Shown one piece after another: positions 14,674-20,905 of a stretch of DNA of 64,000 bases. Where the stretch lies: contig DATKSK010000023.1 in NCBI GenBank assembly GCA_035531755.1, positions 1 to 64,000 on the forward strand, read 5' to 3'. A program made the translations under genes and the position numbers. The notes below the pieces were generated by a model, which ran no database searches, was not told the origin of the DNA, and saw nothing but the letters and a program-made list of their open reading frames with translations. Positions within the stretch are counted from its first letter, which is position 1; each line of letters starts with the position of its first letter. Source of the DNA: Acidimicrobiales bacterium (GTDB taxonomy: Bacteria > Actinomycetota > Acidimicrobiia > Acidimicrobiales > UBA8190).

Positions 14674-15252
14674 CTACCGCCGACGCGCCGGTGCCTTGCG
14701 GGCGGTGGCCTTGCGCGCCGGTGCCTTGCGCGCCGGTGCCTTGCGGGCCGGTGCCTTGCGGGCGGTGGCCTTGCGCGCCGGGGCCTTCTTGGCGGTTGCC
14801 TTGCGGGTGGCAGTCTTCTTGGCCGGCGCCTTGCGGGCGGTCGCCTTCTTGGCGGTCGCCTTGCGTGCCGCCGGCGCAGCCTTGCGCGTCGCCACCGGAG
14901 CGGCCGTCTTCCCTGCGGCGCGCACGGCGTCGTCGCTCGTCGGGAAAGCGCCGCGCTTGAGCTTCGGGGCACCCGACGGCGACATCACGGCGTCCTTGAA
15001 CGCCTTCACCGGAGTGATGCGCGCCTTCTTGGAGGCCTTGATGCGGATCGTCTCTCCCGTGGCGGGATTGCGGCCCATGCGGGCGGGACGGTCGACCTTG
15101 ACGAACTTGGCGAACCCGGTGATCGCCACCGGCACACCCTGCGCCACTACCGCGGTCACGACGTCGGTGAAGCCCTCCAGGACAGTGGACACGGTCCTGA
15201 GGTCCACATCCGCCTGCACGGCCACCGCTTTGGCAAGCTCTCTTTTGTTCAT
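14674..15252 (-). CDS. hupB: HU-like nucleoid protein with lysine-rich tail (HupB type)
   Basis: Residues 1-90 form the HU/IHF DNA-binding fold, with the family block ARMGRNPATGETIRIKASKK. They are followed by a roughly 100-residue basic tail of repeated ARKAP/AKKAT pentads resembling eukaryotic histone H1. This architecture is characteristic of actinobacterial HupB, which compacts DNA and can be modified on the tail. The tail is encoded by 15-bp tandem-like repeats (about 14685-14890), so its length is probably variable between strains. The ATG start is unambiguous because the fold begins at MNKRELAKAVA. It is a single-gene unit with 150 bp to the next gene. Confidence 0.93.
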   Translation of the reverse strand: MNKRELAKAVAVQADVDLRTVSTVLEGFTDVVTAVVAQGVPVAITGFAKFVKVDRPARMGRNPATGETIRIKASKKARITPVKAFKDAVMSPSGAPKLKRGAFPTSDDAVRAAGKTAAPVATRKAAPAARKATAKKATARKAPAKKTATRKATAKKAPARKATARKAPARKAPARKAPARKATARKAPARRR

Positions 15253-15314: not shown

Positions 15315-18173
15315 TCAGCGCCCCAGCATCCAGCGGCCGGCCCGCATGGCACGCCGGCCGAGCGCGCCGCCGAGGTCCGGGAGCCGCACACCCGCCCCCG
15401 CGTCGGCCAAGCGCGAGTACCAGCGGCGGGGAGCGCTCGCCAGGACGAGGAGCGCTAGGCCCAACAGGACGAGGAGGGCGCCGAGGCGGGCGGTCCACCC
15501 CACCCCCTTGCCCGGCCCGGTGAAGGCCAGGGAGCTGCTGGAGACCACCGGCGTCTGGGACCCCGAGCCCCCACCCGACCCCGCGGTGGCCGGTGGCTTG
15601 GTCGTCGTGGTGGCGGCGGCCGCCGAGGTCGTGGTGGTCGTGGGCGCCACCGTCGTGGTGGTGGCGGCCACCGTGGTCGTCGTCGTCGGCGCCACGGTCG
15701 TGGTGGTCGTGGGGGCCGTCGTGGTGGTCGTGGGGGCCGTCGTGGTGGTCGAGCCCGTGGTGGTGGTGGTCGTGGTCGTCGTGGTGGGGTCCGGCTGCAG
15801 GAGGATCAGGCCGCCACCCGAGACGTTCGTCCCCGCCGCGAAGCAGGCCGTGGTGGCGGGACAGGCGACGTCAGAGATGTCGCTCGCCTCGGGTGGGATC
15901 GCCTCGGAGGCCCATGTCGCCCCGCTGTCACCGCTGGCGAGGAGCTCGGCCCCGCCGCCCGATGCGGTGGCGAGCGCGCTGTCGTGGAGGGCCGCGCCGA
16001 GGATGGCACGGCTGCGGGTCGCCCCGCCCAGGACGTGACCGCGCACGGTCCGGTGGCTGGCCGCCGCGGCCCGGACCCACCGGAAGGCCGTGGCCAGGCC
16101 GACGGAGCTCGTGGTGGTGGCGCCTGCGCCTGCGCCGGGGACGCTCCCACCGCCGGTGGCGCTCAGGAGCTGCCCACCGGCGAAGCACTGTGTCGTGGTG
16201 GGGAGGCAGCCGATGCCTTCGAGCGGGCCGGTGCCGGCGGGGACCGTGCCGGCCTGCCATGTGATCCCCCCGTCCGAGGTGTCCACCACGCTGGCGCCGG
16301 CCACCACGCCGGCGGACAGGCCGTCGCCGACGGCTGCACAGGACGTGGCCGACAGGCAGCTGATGCCGAAGAGCGGCCCCGTGCCCGCCGGGGTGGTCTG
16401 CGCCGTCCACGTGGCACCGCCGTCGGCGCTGGCGAAGATCGCCGCCGTGACGCCCGTGATCTGGTCGCCGCCGGCGCCGACGGCGAGGCACGACGTCGCC
16501 GACGGGCACGCCACGCCGAGGAGCTCCAGGGAGCCGGCCGGCAGCACGCCGGGCGTCCAGGTGGTGCCGCCGTCGGTGGTGGCGACGGTGACCGACGCCG
16601 TCTCGGTGGCGTTGGACCCGACGGCGACGCACGCGCTGGCCGACGTGCAGGTGACCGCCATGAGCGGGCCCGTCCCCGCCGGCAGGTTCTGGGGCGTTCC
16701 CCAGGTGGTGCCGCCGTCGGTCGTCTCGATCACGATGCCCGCGCTCGCGGTGCCGCTGTTGGACCCGACCCCGTAGCACGTGGAGACAGAGGGGCAGGCG
16801 ATGCCGAGCAGCTGCCCGCTGCTCGCCGGGATGGGCTGCGGGGTCCAGGTGGTGCCGCCGTCGGTCGTGGCGTAGACGGCGCTGCCGCTGGCGTCGAAGC
16901 CGATGGCGTAGCAGGTGGTGGCCGAGGGGCAGCTGATGGGACCGAGGGACCCGGTGCCCCCCGGCAGGCCCTCGGTGGTCCAGGTGGCACCGCCGTTGGC
17001 GGTGCCAAGGACCTTCGCCACCGAGCCGTCACCGTTGGACGTCATGGCGACGCACGAGGCGGCGGGCCGGCAGGCGACGGCGGCGATGGGCCCGGTGTCG
17101 CCGGGGAGCGTCTGGGTGGTCCACGTGGCGCCGCCGTTCGTGGTCCCGACCATCACTCCGAACGTGAAGTTCTGGTCCTCGCCGCCCACCACGCACGACG
17201 TCGCCGACGCGCAGCTGACACCCTGGAACGCCCCCGCGGTGGCGGGGACGGCCTGGCTCACCCAGGTGGTGCCGTTCGCGGTGGTGTCGATCTCCGCCGC
17301 GGAGCCGTCCGCGTTGTACCCGGCGGCGACGCACATCGACACCGTGGGGCATGACACCGCCGAGAGGTCGCCGGCGCTGTTGGGGGCGTTGCGGTTCACC
17401 CACTTGGCTCCCCCGTTGGTGGTGGCGATGATGGCCGCGGCCGATCCGTCGGCGGTGGTGCCGACGGCCACGCACGTGGTGAGCGAGGCGCACGACAGGG
17501 CTTCGATCGGCCCCATGGCGGCCGGGACGGTCTGCGGTACCCAGGTGGCGCCGCCGTTGGCGGTGGCCACCACCACGGCGGTCAAGAAGTTGGGGTCGGT
17601 CCCCGCCGCCGTGCACGACGTGGCGCTCGGGCACACGACGCCGAAGAGCGCCCCGGCGGCGGCCGGAGCCGTCTGGCTCGTCCAGGTGGTGCCGCCGTCG
17701 GTGGTGGCCACGATCACGCCGGCGGTCTCGGCGGCATTGGACCCGACGGCCACGCACGACGTGGCGCTGGCGCAGCTCACGCCGAAGAGGGGCCCGGCGC
17801 CGGCGGGCGGGCTCTGGCTCGTCCAGGTGGCCCCGCCGTCGGCGCTGGCCATGATCTCGGCCCCGGTGAAGTCGGCGTTGGCACCGACGCCGATGCACAC
17901 CGTCGCCGTGGGGCACGACACGCCCGACAGGGGTGAGACGGGCCCGGTGTAGGAGGCGCTGGTCTGCCACCCCGACGCCGTGGCCGAGGCGTGCGTGGAC
18001 AGGAGCAGGCCCCCGCCCACGGCGGCCACCAGGGCGGCCACCACCCGGACGCGGACGCGCCCACGGCCGGTGCCGGTCGGGGGAGCGGGCCTGATGGCCA
18101 CCCCGTGCGTAGGAGCGATCGCTCCGGGCGCGATCGAGCGCGTCCAGATCTGACGGCGTCGTCCAGACATCAT
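15315..18173 (-). CDS. Large Asp-box repeat surface protein with LAFTG sorting-like signal
   Basis: After a basic N-terminus and a signal-anchor helix (VVAALVAAVGGGLLL) the protein has about 14 units of 45-47 residues. Each holds a paired Cys (C-x6-C) and an Asp-box (TDGGTTWT type), predicting one or two beta-propellers. A Thr-rich stalk (about residues 800-860) and a Gly/Ser linker lead to LAFTG, a hydrophobic helix and RR, the layout of a class E sortase substrate (LAxTG). Unusually, about 37 residues follow the membrane helix. I prefer the ATG at 18173 because the G-run before it can act as ribosome-binding site; a GTG lies two codons upstream. The ligand is unknown; it is probably a cell-surface binding or adhesion protein. 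Confidence 0.8.
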   Translation of the reverse strand: MMSGRRRQIWTRSIAPGAIAPTHGVAIRPAPPTGTGRGRVRVRVVAALVAAVGGGLLLSTHASATASGWQTSASYTGPVSPLSGVSCPTATVCIGVGANADFTGAEIMASADGGATWTSQSPPAGAGPLFGVSCASATSCVAVGSNAAETAGVIVATTDGGTTWTSQTAPAAAGALFGVVCPSATSCTAAGTDPNFLTAVVVATANGGATWVPQTVPAAMGPIEALSCASLTTCVAVGTTADGSAAAIIATTNGGAKWVNRNAPNSAGDLSAVSCPTVSMCVAAGYNADGSAAEIDTTANGTTWVSQAVPATAGAFQGVSCASATSCVVGGEDQNFTFGVMVGTTNGGATWTTQTLPGDTGPIAAVACRPAASCVAMTSNGDGSVAKVLGTANGGATWTTEGLPGGTGSLGPISCPSATTCYAIGFDASGSAVYATTDGGTTWTPQPIPASSGQLLGIACPSVSTCYGVGSNSGTASAGIVIETTDGGTTWGTPQNLPAGTGPLMAVTCTSASACVAVGSNATETASVTVATTDGGTTWTPGVLPAGSLELLGVACPSATSCLAVGAGGDQITGVTAAIFASADGGATWTAQTTPAGTGPLFGISCLSATSCAAVGDGLSAGVVAGASVVDTSDGGITWQAGTVPAGTGPLEGIGCLPTTTQCFAGGQLLSATGGGSVPGAGAGATTTSSVGLATAFRWVRAAAASHRTVRGHVLGGATRSRAILGAALHDSALATASGGGAELLASGDSGATWASEAIPPEASDISDVACPATTACFAAGTNVSGGGLILLQPDPTTTTTTTTTTGSTTTTAPTTTTTAPTTTTTVAPTTTTTVAATTTTVAPTTTTTSAAAATTTTKPPATAGSGGGSGSQTPVVSSSSLAFTGPGKGVGWTARLGALLVLLGLALLVLASAPRRWYSRLADAGAGVRLPDLGGALGRRAMRAGRWMLGR

Positions 18174-18225
18174 CCCCACCCCCCCCAGAAAGCCCCCGCC
18201 GGTGGGAGTCGTCCCAGGTAGACGA

Positions 18226-18295: not shown

Positions 18296-18371
18296 TGGTG
18301 GTCGGGACCGGCGTCGATCCGGTGACCTCACGCTTTTCAGGCGCGCGCTCTACCAACTGAGCTACCCGACC
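18296..18371 (-). tRNA. tRNA-Phe (GAA)
   Basis: The 76-nt gene folds into a full cloverleaf. The acceptor GGTCGGG pairs with CCCGACC, the anticodon loop CTGAAAA gives GAA, and A73 is followed by an encoded CCA. The T-loop is ATCGACG, with A in place of the usual first T. It is the last gene of a Glu-Asp-Phe cluster. Confidence 0.93.
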
Positions 18372-18401
18372 GTTGTCTGCCGCGGACAACGTCCGTGGCG
18401 G

Positions 18402-18476
18402 CGGTCCTGACGGGATTTGAACCCGCGACCTCCGGCTTGACAGGCCGGCGTGCACTCCAGACTGCACCACAGGACC
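18402..18476 (-). tRNA. tRNA-Asp (GTC)
   Basis: The acceptor GGTCCTG pairs with CAGGACC, the anticodon stem CCGGC/GCCGG encloses CTGTCAA with anticodon GTC, and the T-loop is TTCAAAT. The discriminator is G and no CCA is encoded. It lies between tRNA-Glu and tRNA-Phe on the same strand. Confidence 0.94.
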
Positions 18477-18500
18477 CCGGTCAGCGTCGCCCCACCGCTG

Positions 18501-18573
18501 CACCCCCAACGGGATTCGAACCCGTGTTACCGCCTTGAAAGGGCGGCGTCCTCGGCCACTAGACGATGGGGGC
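18501..18573 (-). tRNA. tRNA-Glu (TTC)
   Basis: The acceptor GCCCCCA pairs with TGGGGGT, the anticodon loop CTTTCAA gives TTC, and the T-arm is CGGG-TTCGAAT-CCCG. The discriminator is G without encoded CCA. It is first in the cluster; a TAACCT hexamer at 18600-18595 is a plausible -10 element for the cluster. Confidence 0.94.
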
Positions 18574-18619: not shown

Positions 18620-19981
18620 TCACCCGGGCGCGGCGCCGTCGACGAGCCCCCACTCGGAGCCTCCGGGCGTGTCGCGGACCTCCACCCCGAGGGCCACCAG
18701 CCCGTCGCGCACGGCGTCGGCCTCGGCGAAACGGCGTTCGGACCGCGCCGCCTCGCGCAGCGACAGGGCGAGATCGACGAACGGGCCCACCACGGTCGCC
18801 GGGTCGCGGGTGCCGCGCTCGGCCACCGTGCCCAGCTCCGCCACCATGGTCCGCAGGCTGGCGCGACCGCGGTCGAGCGCGTCGGACTGCAGGGTGTCGG
18901 CGCTCCAGGCCCACAGCTCGTCGTCGAGCGCCAGCACGGCGCGCACCATGCCCTCGGCGTCCGAGCCGTCCCGGGCGGCGCGGAACGACTCTTCGTGGAG
19001 CCTGATCGCGCTCAGCAGGGGCGGGCCGTCGCGGTCGGCCGACCCCGCGCCCGCCCCGGCGGCACCTCCTGGCGTCCCGGCTGCCGGGCCGCCGGCTGTG
19101 TCCGTGCCGGGCACCGCCGTGCCGGGCACCGCCGTGCCGGGCACCGCCAGCGCGGCGTCGCCGGTCCCCCCGGCGGCGAGCTCGGCGGCGAGCCCGGGGA
19201 TGCGGTCGAAGGGCACCGTCTCCCCGGCCTCGATCCGCACGGACCGGCCCCGCACCCGCACGGTGACCCCCCCGTGGCCCTGCACGGCGGCGGTGCCGGC
19301 GTCGAGGTCCACGCACAGGGCGGTGTGCTCGTCGACCCCCAGGACGAAGGCGCCCTCGGGGAGCTCGCGCTCCAGGGCCGCCAGCCGGTCCTCCCCCAGG
19401 TAGCAGAAGCGCGTGTCGTGGGTGCCGCCCTCGGCGTTGTCGTAGTGGGGGATGAGGGCAACCCGCAGGCCGAGGGGCGCCAGCAGGTCGAGCCCCGGGG
19501 CCCAGCGCGGGTGCTCGCCCACCTTGTAGACCTCGTAGACGGGTACGGTGACCACGCCCAGGGTGAGCGCCGCCGCCGACGAGAAGGTGAGGGCCCCCCC
19601 GAGGGCCAGCTTCTCGGCCAGGACCGAGGGGACGAGGGTGCCCTGCCACTGGCGCAGGGCATAGGTGGGGCTGCCGGGGCCGGCGAACACCAGCGCCGCC
19701 GCCACCAGCCGGGCGATGACGGCGTCGCCCCCGGGCCCTTCCAGGTCCGCCGCGGACCGCATGCCGGCGACGTCCAGGGTGGCCCCGACGCTGTCGCGGA
19801 AATACGAGACGGTGCGCGCCGCGATCTCCGCCGCGTTGGTCTGGAACCCGAAGGGGGTGTCGAGGAGCAGGGCCCGGACCGGCCCCGGCCCCAGCCGCTC
19901 GACCACGGCACGGTGGACCTTCACCATGGTCGGCGCCGTCTCGCCCGACCCCATGATCGTCAGCAGGCGGGGCCCGGACAT
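18620..19981 (-). CDS. Peptidase S51/cyanophycinase-like protein fused to a CysS-like C-terminal region
   Basis: The 453-residue protein has two parts. Residues 1-230 resemble the class I amidotransferase-like peptidase E/cyanophycinase fold: an N-terminal TIMGSGETAPTM, LVFAGPGSPTYAL, a nucleophile-elbow-like FSSAAALTLG and the GVDEHTALCVD block that places an acidic residue as in cyanophycinases. After a linker with repeated VPGTA units comes a C-terminal ~140 residues that resemble the DALR and tail regions of cysteinyl-tRNA synthetase, ending in RFAEADAVRDGLVALGVEV and DTPGGSEW. No synthetase catalytic domain is present. It lies beside the tRNA cluster. A TAAGAT -10 candidate is 11 nt before the ATG. 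The function is not known; a tRNA- or aminoacyl-linked hydrolase is a guess. Confidence 0.72.
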   Translation of the reverse strand: MSGPRLLTIMGSGETAPTMVKVHRAVVERLGPGPVRALLLDTPFGFQTNAAEIAARTVSYFRDSVGATLDVAGMRSAADLEGPGGDAVIARLVAAALVFAGPGSPTYALRQWQGTLVPSVLAEKLALGGALTFSSAAALTLGVVTVPVYEVYKVGEHPRWAPGLDLLAPLGLRVALIPHYDNAEGGTHDTRFCYLGEDRLAALERELPEGAFVLGVDEHTALCVDLDAGTAAVQGHGGVTVRVRGRSVRIEAGETVPFDRIPGLAAELAAGGTGDAALAVPGTAVPGTAVPGTDTAGGPAAGTPGGAAGAGAGSADRDGPPLLSAIRLHEESFRAARDGSDAEGMVRAVLALDDELWAWSADTLQSDALDRGRASLRTMVAELGTVAERGTRDPATVVGPFVDLALSLREAARSERRFAEADAVRDGLVALGVEVRDTPGGSEWGLVDGAAPG

Positions 19982-20012: not shown

Positions 20013-20558
20013 TCACCGGTCCCGTGGGTCGGGAGCGGTGGCGCCGCCCTTGGGCAGCCCGGCGGCCAGGGCGTCGACGATCTCCCCCTGCAGCATGCTC
20101 AGGTACTGGTAGACGGTGAATTGGTCCGACCGCGGGTCGTCGGGCTCGATCTCCACCACGTCCTCGCTGACGTCGAGCTGGGTCCCGAGGACCAGGCGCA
20201 GGACCTCGACGGCCCCCAGCCACCCGTGCAGCTCGTCCTCGTCGATGCTGGTCTCGTCCACGGTGTCGGTCAGGACCGCGAGGGCGTGGCGATGGTGATC
20301 GAGGAGCTGGGCCCCCATCATCTCCCGGTACTCGGCCTGGGCCGCCTCGTCGTCGGGGTAGGCGACGGGGAAGAGCCGCTGCGCCGACGGCTCGTCGTGC
20401 TCCACCAGCTCGCGGGCCTGCTCGGGCAGGGCCCGCAGCAGCTCGCGCTCGGGGAGCTCCAGGCCGGGGCGGATGCGCCCCTGGCGGTCGCGCCCGAAGC
20501 GCTTCCGCCCGATCACCGGCACCACCCGATCAGCGGGCACGGCCCCGTCAGCGGGCAC
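20013..20558 (-). CDS. DUF2017 family protein
   Basis: The 181-residue acidic protein resembles the DUF2017 family, found next to clpS in many actinobacteria; its function is unknown. The conserved part begins at about residue 14 (VIGRKRFGRDRQG) and includes LGTQLDVSEDV and QYLSMLQGEIVDAL. It follows clpS on the same strand with 41 bp between them. That gap and the first codons consist of duplicated 17-18-bp units, which makes the exact start uncertain; a GTG nearer the conserved part is equally possible. Context suggests a role near ClpS-dependent proteolysis. Confidence 0.75.
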   Translation of the reverse strand: MPADGAVPADRVVPVIGRKRFGRDRQGRIRPGLELPERELLRALPEQARELVEHDEPSAQRLFPVAYPDDEAAQAEYREMMGAQLLDHHRHALAVLTDTVDETSIDEDELHGWLGAVEVLRLVLGTQLDVSEDVVEIEPDDPRSDQFTVYQYLSMLQGEIVDALAAGLPKGGATAPDPRDR

Positions 20559-20602
20559 GGCCCCGTCACCGTCTCCGCCCCGTCACCGTCTCCGCCCCGT
20601 CA
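20533..20602. repeat. Paired tandem duplications across the clpS stop and DUF2017 start
   Basis: An 18-bp unit is present twice (20533-20550, 20551-20568), followed by a 17-bp unit present twice (20569-20585, 20586-20602). Each unit ends in CGTCA. The clpS TGA lies in the last copy and the DUF2017 GTG in the second. Confidence 0.8.
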
Positions 20603-20905
20603 CGACGACTGCTCCATGGTGGCCCACAACCCGTGCTCGTGGAGCCGGAAGACGTCGAGCTCCGCCCGCTCGCGGGGCCCCGAGGTCACGACGGCCCGGC
20701 CCTTGTGGTGGACGTCGAGCATCAGCTTGGTGGCCTTGTCGCGGCTGTAGCCGAAGAGCTTCTGGAAGACGTAGGTGACGTACGACATCAGGTTGATGGG
20801 GTCGTTCCACACGATGACCATCCACGGCCGGTCCGGGCGCACGTCCTCCCCGCCCTCGGGCCGGTCGACCTCGACGGGCCGGACCTCGGTCCCGGGCCCC
20901 GTCAT
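20600..20905 (-). CDS. clpS: ATP-dependent Clp protease adaptor ClpS
   Basis: This 101-residue adaptor delivers N-degron substrates to ClpA/ClpC. The binding-pocket block is clear: [20 protein letters not shown] followed by [17 protein letters not shown], and the family's substrate-gating Met is present. The N-terminal 27 residues are a flexible acidic arm as in other ClpS proteins. The ATG overlaps the ctaA stop by 4 nt (ATGA), so clpS is translationally coupled to a heme biosynthesis gene, probably by chance of operon packing. Confidence 0.92.

Follow-up and report, generated by a model that had tools for sequence, protein, structure and literature searches.

Peptidases of family S51 carry a catalytic triad in the order Ser-His-Glu/Asp, which in PepE consists of Ser120, His157 and Glu192 and in MccG of Ser133, His168 and Asp196 (PMC9239234). 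According to the excerpts of that paper available to us, PepE cleaves following an N-terminal Asp, the S51 member MccG hydrolyses aminoacyl-nucleotides, and some S51 proteins (clade II) are without peptidase activity (PMC9239234). For Orf2 of Streptomyces, Asp147, located 13 residues past its Ser, is described as essential in an excerpt of the respective report (PMC11078827). In the cysteinyl-tRNA synthetase (CysRS) of E. coli, G34 of the anticodon is hydrogen-bonded by Arg427 and Asp436 and stacked by Trp432, and a water links G34 to Asp436 and Arg423, as stated in the accessible part of the source (PMC12684709). A comparable design is the archaeal ThrRS-ED, in which, according to an excerpt, an editing hydrolase domain is attached to an anticodon-binding domain and the synthetase core is missing (PMC8762117).

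The gene analysed here lies in a window of 64,000 nucleotides (the whole stretch of DNA under study) from an Acidimicrobiales bacterium and joins an S51-type hydrolase domain to a CysRS anticodon-binding domain. Titles and abstracts of the open-licence literature, searched mostly by word co-occurrence, contained no description of such a fusion, in agreement with an earlier sequence-only reading that knew of no system with this layout. To our knowledge, the two domains are not known to occur together. The placement of a hydrolase on an anticodon-binding domain is known already as a design, and what is new is the domain combination, found in a conserved and apparently unnamed family.

Architecture and spread of the fusion family

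The open reading frame starts with ATG, encodes 453 residues within boundaries of exactly 18620-19981 on the minus strand, and is single-copy in the 3.28 Mb genome. The S51 domain (residues 1-264) is followed by a disordered linker and the CysRS anticodon-binding domain (about residues 320-447); the AlphaFold model of the protein has a mean pLDDT of 83.6 and a pTM of 0.64.

18620..19981, minus strand: whole fusion gene, 453 aa, S51-type hydrolase plus CysRS anticodon-binding domain
19190..19981, minus strand: predicted S51 (peptidase E/cyanophycinase) fold, residues 1-264, from AlphaFold model, Foldseek, VIA-align and profile match
19025..19180, minus strand: linker, residues 268-319, mostly of low confidence in the model
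18644..19024, minus strand: CysRS anticodon-binding domain, residues 320-446, with helical bundle, last helix and beta hairpin

Our alignment of 36 fusion members comprises 27 from the order, five from other lineages of the phylum and four plasmid-collection copies (Streptomyces, Nonomuraea and a Streptomycetaceae bacterium). Linker length varies from 20 to 66 residues among them, and the linker DNA of the window contains a perfect 15-base tandem repeat of 3.1 copies (19102-19148) that encodes VPGTA repeats.

Taken alone, the fusion protein shows a faint S51 match (6nqc, E=0.032, phmmer against PDB chains) and an E of 0.09 against a cyanophycinase model, and a profile built from 27 homologues finds 6nqc among the PDB chains at E 1.2e-5. 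Six of the 27 members match Pfam PF03575 with E values no higher than 0.1 (best 5.4e-4), and the window protein (P0001) is not among them. For the predicted fold of residues 1-264, Foldseek retrieves 6nqc at E 2.2e-14, and VIA-align yields Z 25.2 for 6nqc (2.9 A over 235 aligned residues), Z 23.9 for CphB (3en0) and Z 20.7 for PepE (1fy2). The fold predicted for the domain is that of S51 enzymes, and the profile and the model together bear out the S51-like N-terminal half noted from the sequence.

The window protein reaches the Pfam CysS_C cut-off on its own (23.1 bits vs 23), and 27/27 aligned homologues match this model (best E 1.6e-10). In addition, the fusion profile matches residues 335-459 of E. 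coli CysRS (E 2.3e-9), and hhalign of the fusion tails with 26 CysS tails and the E. coli piece gives a probability of 98.3 and an E of 1.4e-14. Judged by these Pfam, profile and hhalign scores, the sequence resemblance of the tail to CysRS cannot be put down to chance; it extends over the anticodon-binding domain in full, and not over a short tail only. The sequence-only reading had described a CysS-like C-terminal part without a catalytic core and had named an HMM search as the check; this search was positive, and Pfam found no synthetase catalytic domain (class I core) in the fusion protein. Foldseek ranks 1u0b first for the tail model (prob 1.00, E 1.2e-3), the rigid-body superposition on 1u0b is poor (rmsd 16.1 over 115, Z 8.4), and for tail helices 1-75 VIA-align places unrelated helical bundles above 1u0b (Z up to 10.1), so that the homology of the tail rests on sequence.

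Among the 99 genomes searched, the one of the window included, 61 gave a match and 48 of these contain the S51 part; the other 13 match in the tail region alone, where the reading frame is as long as a CysS or shorter. Five of the 48 copies are cut by a contig end (G005, G011, G015, G016, G017), and the tail is present in all 43 uncut ones. Since about half of the relatives lack the gene (48/99 have it), it is not essential within the group. In a sample of 396 genomes evenly chosen from the phylum, 28 carry the S51 part at E <= 1.5e-89, of which 15 belong to the same order and 13 lie outside the class. A scan of named genomes returned at least 591 relatives; the 80 kept are mostly labelled Acidimicrobiia or Actinomycetes, with a few Chloroflexi or Dormiibacterota. 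The scan also showed that Aciditerrimonas ferrireducens, which is in culture, has the gene. Two copies with gene tables are annotated as 'hypothetical protein' (WTX01040.1, WP_207565538.1). A short copy from the sample of 396 genomes (G293:C27:3269-3847, L139), with an open frame of 152 residues and a TGA stop in frame, is perhaps a pseudogene, and a further genome contains, besides a full fusion, a separate tail-only match (G098:C97:3673-3966) of 55% identity in a 106-residue frame.

In the tail tree, the fusion tails group together in a single clade that is separate from the CysS tails (support 100/100), and the distances of the S51 half and the tail half correlate (r 0.74 over 630 pairs); both results fit one old fusion in Actinomycetota. 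Given the sequence profiles, the predicted structures and this single-origin tail tree, the fusion is a genuine protein family and a chance reading frame is excluded. In our judgement, which is not a computed value, the fusion and the tail homology of the 453-residue protein are near certain. The fusion is no replacement for CysS, because the same genome holds a separate full-length CysS. This resident CysS is located at G000:C11:30827-32209, and the CysS_C match of the genome falls only in the fusion. The fusion shares with CysRS (1u0b) the whole anticodon-binding domain by sequence together with the G34-contact residues, and differs from it by the missing catalytic core and by a tail that clusters apart from those of resident CysS. 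The Trp of a GTxW motif is retained in 36/36 fusion tails, whereas it is missing from 23 of 26 resident CysS of the order (relatives' loci L142-L171).

The gene may be mobile, as copies are found on large linear plasmid records. In one of these (L181, Streptomycetaceae) the copy lies near an ECF sigma factor and an anti-sigma factor, and in another (L182, Streptomyces) near DUF4331, TPR and nickel transporter genes. A phage origin was rejected, with no match among 50,697 phage records, and so was an assignment to a defence system, as PADLOC gave no match.

Putative active site and G34-contact residues

The following residues of the window protein are candidates for catalysis and tRNA contact:

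19577..19579, minus strand: Ser135, putative nucleophile, motif F-[SAG]-S-A-A-A, 36/36, aligned with the Ser of 6nqc GCSAGA
19532..19534, minus strand: Glu150 (PVYE), 15 residues past Ser135, 36/36
19445..19447, minus strand: His179, putative catalytic His, in PHYDNAEGGTHDTR, 36/36, aligned with the His of 6nqc
19328..19330, minus strand: Glu218, putative third triad residue, LGVDEHT, 36/36, aligned with 6nqc GIDEVTAL
18716..18757, minus strand: Arg409, Arg413, Phe418 and Asp422, corresponding to E. coli CysRS Arg423, Arg427, Trp432 and Asp436

The triad was assigned to Ser135, His179 and Glu218 on the basis of the published S51 triads and the alignment to 6nqc. These three residues and Glu150 are invariant in 36/36 aligned members, so the Ser-His-Glu order of S51 is present in the sequence, as the earlier reading had proposed. 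Glu150 is comparable to the essential Asp147 of Orf2 in its distance from the Ser (15 vs 13 residues). While the fusion resembles PepE, CphB and 6nqc in predicted fold (Z 20.7 to 25.2) and in residue order, it differs from them by its weak or absent Pfam S51 match, the fused tail, several near-invariant extra motifs (DTPFGFQxN, GPGSPxYA, PVYExYK, NxEGGxHDTRxxYLG) and the nucleophile elbow. The latter reads S-A-A-A in 36/36 members and departs from the GxSxG type, in contrast to two stand-alone S51 proteins of relatives that carry GCSAGA. The GxSxG elbow is not strict in S51, and PepE sequences vary there too. A long loop following His179, on the predicted substrate side, is invariant among the members and of low confidence in the AlphaFold model (block mean 60). 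We judge from the conserved residues, without a computed figure, that the site is probably catalytically active.

The arginines 409 and 413 and Asp422 are kept in 36/36 members, and position 418 is aromatic in 36/36, including the Streptomyces and Nonomuraea copies. Of the 127 columns of the tail that were examined, nine are invariant over the 36 members, and the contacts Arg409, Arg413 and Asp422 account for three of these, although divergence is faster in the tail as a whole than in the S51 part (mean distance 0.56 vs 0.42). The same G34-contact residues are conserved in CysS tails, too, and a folding constraint is therefore a possible cause of their conservation. Weighing these sequence features, again by judgement and not by computation, we lean towards a tail that still binds tRNA.

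Genomic context

The neighbours of the fusion gene in the window are:

18500..18573, minus strand: tRNA-Glu (ttc), downstream neighbour, synteny only
18400..18476, minus strand: tRNA-Asp (gtc), downstream neighbour
18296..18371, minus strand: tRNA-Phe (gaa), downstream neighbour
20013..20558, minus strand: DUF2017 gene, directly upstream, Pfam E 4.1e-27
20600..20890, minus strand: ClpS gene, further upstream, Pfam E 1.7e-24

The position beside tRNA genes had been part of the sequence-only reading and applies to the window; it does not hold as a general feature, and none of the three is a tRNA-Cys. A downstream tRNA-Glu (in one case tRNA-Asp) was found in 24/27 uncut loci of the first 30, which are near relatives of the window, but in only 28 of 71 testable loci among the next 80. 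The two annotated plasmid loci have gene tables without RNA genes and are hence uninformative on this point. The tRNA neighbours are local synteny and no functional clue, and their candidacy as such was rejected on the 28/71 count.

Directly upstream, 73 testable loci showed an alpha/beta hydrolase gene (49), DUF2017 (17) or other genes (7). The alpha/beta hydrolase (Abhydrolase_6, E 2.5e-19 in L075; loci L031-L110) usually has its stop nearly touching the start of the fusion gene. It is absent from the window, and the genome of the window holds distant members of its family without an ortholog; outside the order it stands upstream in 0/9 loci, and the neighbours examined there share nothing with each other. 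A fixed operon partner was therefore rejected, as the alpha/beta hydrolase is not universal and the outside neighbours are unrelated. None of the neighbouring genes gives a hint of translation quality control. A link to mycothiol was set aside as well: tail-less CysS-like proteins, which we take to be MshC-like, occur in relatives both with and without the fusion.

Two further genes of the window attracted our attention. The small protein at 14674-15252 (minus strand) has a long tail of Lys/Ala repeats, where the DNA consists of 15/30-base tandem repeats (14684-14865), and an N-terminal part presumably resembling a HU-type DNA-binding protein. The long protein at 15315-18179 (minus strand), with repeated units containing cysteine pairs, a Thr-rich tail, a C-terminal hydrophobic stretch and a 141-base repeat at 17613-17924, is by reading alone probably exported.

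Candidate functions of the fusion protein

For the fusion protein, we infer tRNA binding, a choice of tRNA-Cys, catalytic activity and a reaction of the following kind. The CysRS-derived tail would grip the anticodon arm of tRNA-Cys or of another G34 tRNA, and the flexible linker would give the S51 domain access to an acyl or aminoacyl group of the tRNA, most probably at its 3' terminus. The attack on the carbonyl would come from Ser135, with His179 and Glu218 as activators, and Glu150 and the invariant loop following His179 would bind the substrate. The outcome would be a deacylation in trans, by which a wrong or blocked amino acid is cleared from tRNA-Cys. We favour such a trans-acting deacylase because of the chemistry of PepE and MccG and the design precedent of ThrRS-ED, and put it forward as a tentative proposal, in which the steering to tRNA-Cys or another G34 tRNA is suggested by the sequence and the reaction is conjectural. 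The earlier reading had proposed hydrolysis of a substrate that is aminoacyl- or tRNA-linked; this candidate role is strengthened, since all reported G34-contact residues are kept (an aromatic residue for Trp432). The tail that is never lost in the 43 uncut copies speaks in favour of the deacylase, and the lack of an operon partner and the separate CysS are as expected for a protein acting in trans. Against it stand the S-A-A-A elbow in place of G-x-S-x-G, the possible folding role of the contact residues, the low confidence of the loop following His179, the poor rigid-body fit of the tail model, neighbours that do not point to translation quality control and the absence of the gene from about half of the relatives; against the choice of tRNA-Cys stands the fact that G34 is common to several tRNAs. 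Like ThrRS-ED, as far as the excerpt describes it, the fusion combines a hydrolytic with a synthetase anticodon-binding domain and has no aminoacylation core; it differs by its S51 fold, its CysRS domain, its bacterial host and a hydrolase activity that is putative. With MccG of microcin C resistance it shares the S51 fold and thereby a precedent for aminoacyl-nucleotide substrates; the third triad residue is Asp in MccG and Glu218 (36/36) in the fusion, and the excerpt on MccG mentions no tail.

An ordinary small-peptide hydrolase, similar to aspartyl dipeptidase, whose CysRS-derived tail serves folding, dimerisation or location instead of tRNA, is conceivable but on the unlikely side. The fold does match PepE and cyanophycinase, known S51 enzymes act on Asp-X peptides, and the G34-contact residues, being conserved across the domain family, may be structural. 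However, such an enzyme would not readily account for a tail that is never lost and whose charged contact residues are invariant in 36/36 members while its remainder diverges, nor for an S51 part so far from PF03575. Cyanophycin degradation, also named in the sequence-only reading, fared worst: although the closest folds include CphB (3en0) and 7uqw, the NCBIfam cyanophycinase equivalog TIGR02069 scores 12.2 bits vs a cut-off of 126.6, and cyanophycin is practically out as a substrate because its synthetase is above cut-off in just one relative out of 98, namely G034, where the fusion is absent.

We regard it as improbable that the protein detoxifies aminoacyl- or peptidyl-nucleotide inhibitors of CysRS as MccG does, with the tail binding the synthetase or its tRNA. 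MccG-type S51 enzymes cleave aminoacyl-nucleotide antibiotics according to the excerpt, and the patchy spread with plasmid-collection copies fits a resistance trait, but the third triad residue of this type is Asp and not Glu, a reading of the two annotated plasmid loci revealed no cluster of antibiotic genes, and a small molecule needs no anticodon reader. Similarly improbable is a sensory or regulatory role of the protein, with a catalytically dead S51 domain and binding of tRNA-Cys, for which the departing elbow and the clade II proteins reported, in part of the source, to be without peptidase activity could be cited; the Ser, His and Glu kept in 36/36 members and the long invariant loop on the substrate side argue against it. 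Finally, a tRNA-guided enzyme could attack peptidyl-tRNA or work close to the anticodon, where a base modified with an amino acid would be one conceivable target. The reader domain is placed at the anticodon, and S51 enzymes cleave amino-acid amides, as the excerpts indicate, and by extension perhaps esters; still, this is a very unlikely reading, as G34 itself would be occupied by the contact residues and the genome of the window has no match above the cut-off for the known maker of glutamyl-queuosine. The glutamyl-queuosine link was rejected, with GluQRS over the cut-off in 3/21 genomes and the window's own not among them.

If the trans-acting deacylase is the right reading, many Actinomycetota would possess an enzyme that proofreads or rescues tRNA-Cys, and the S51 peptidases would gain an RNA-directed branch. 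In that case it might constitute a new enzyme family, in which an S51 serine hydrolase acts on tRNA for the first time and serves tRNA-Cys as a dedicated trans deacylase, a claim we advance with considerable reserve. This would raise the question of what these bacteria have to remove from tRNA-Cys, be it a wrong or a blocked load. Irrespective of its function, the fusion family offers clear residues for mutation.
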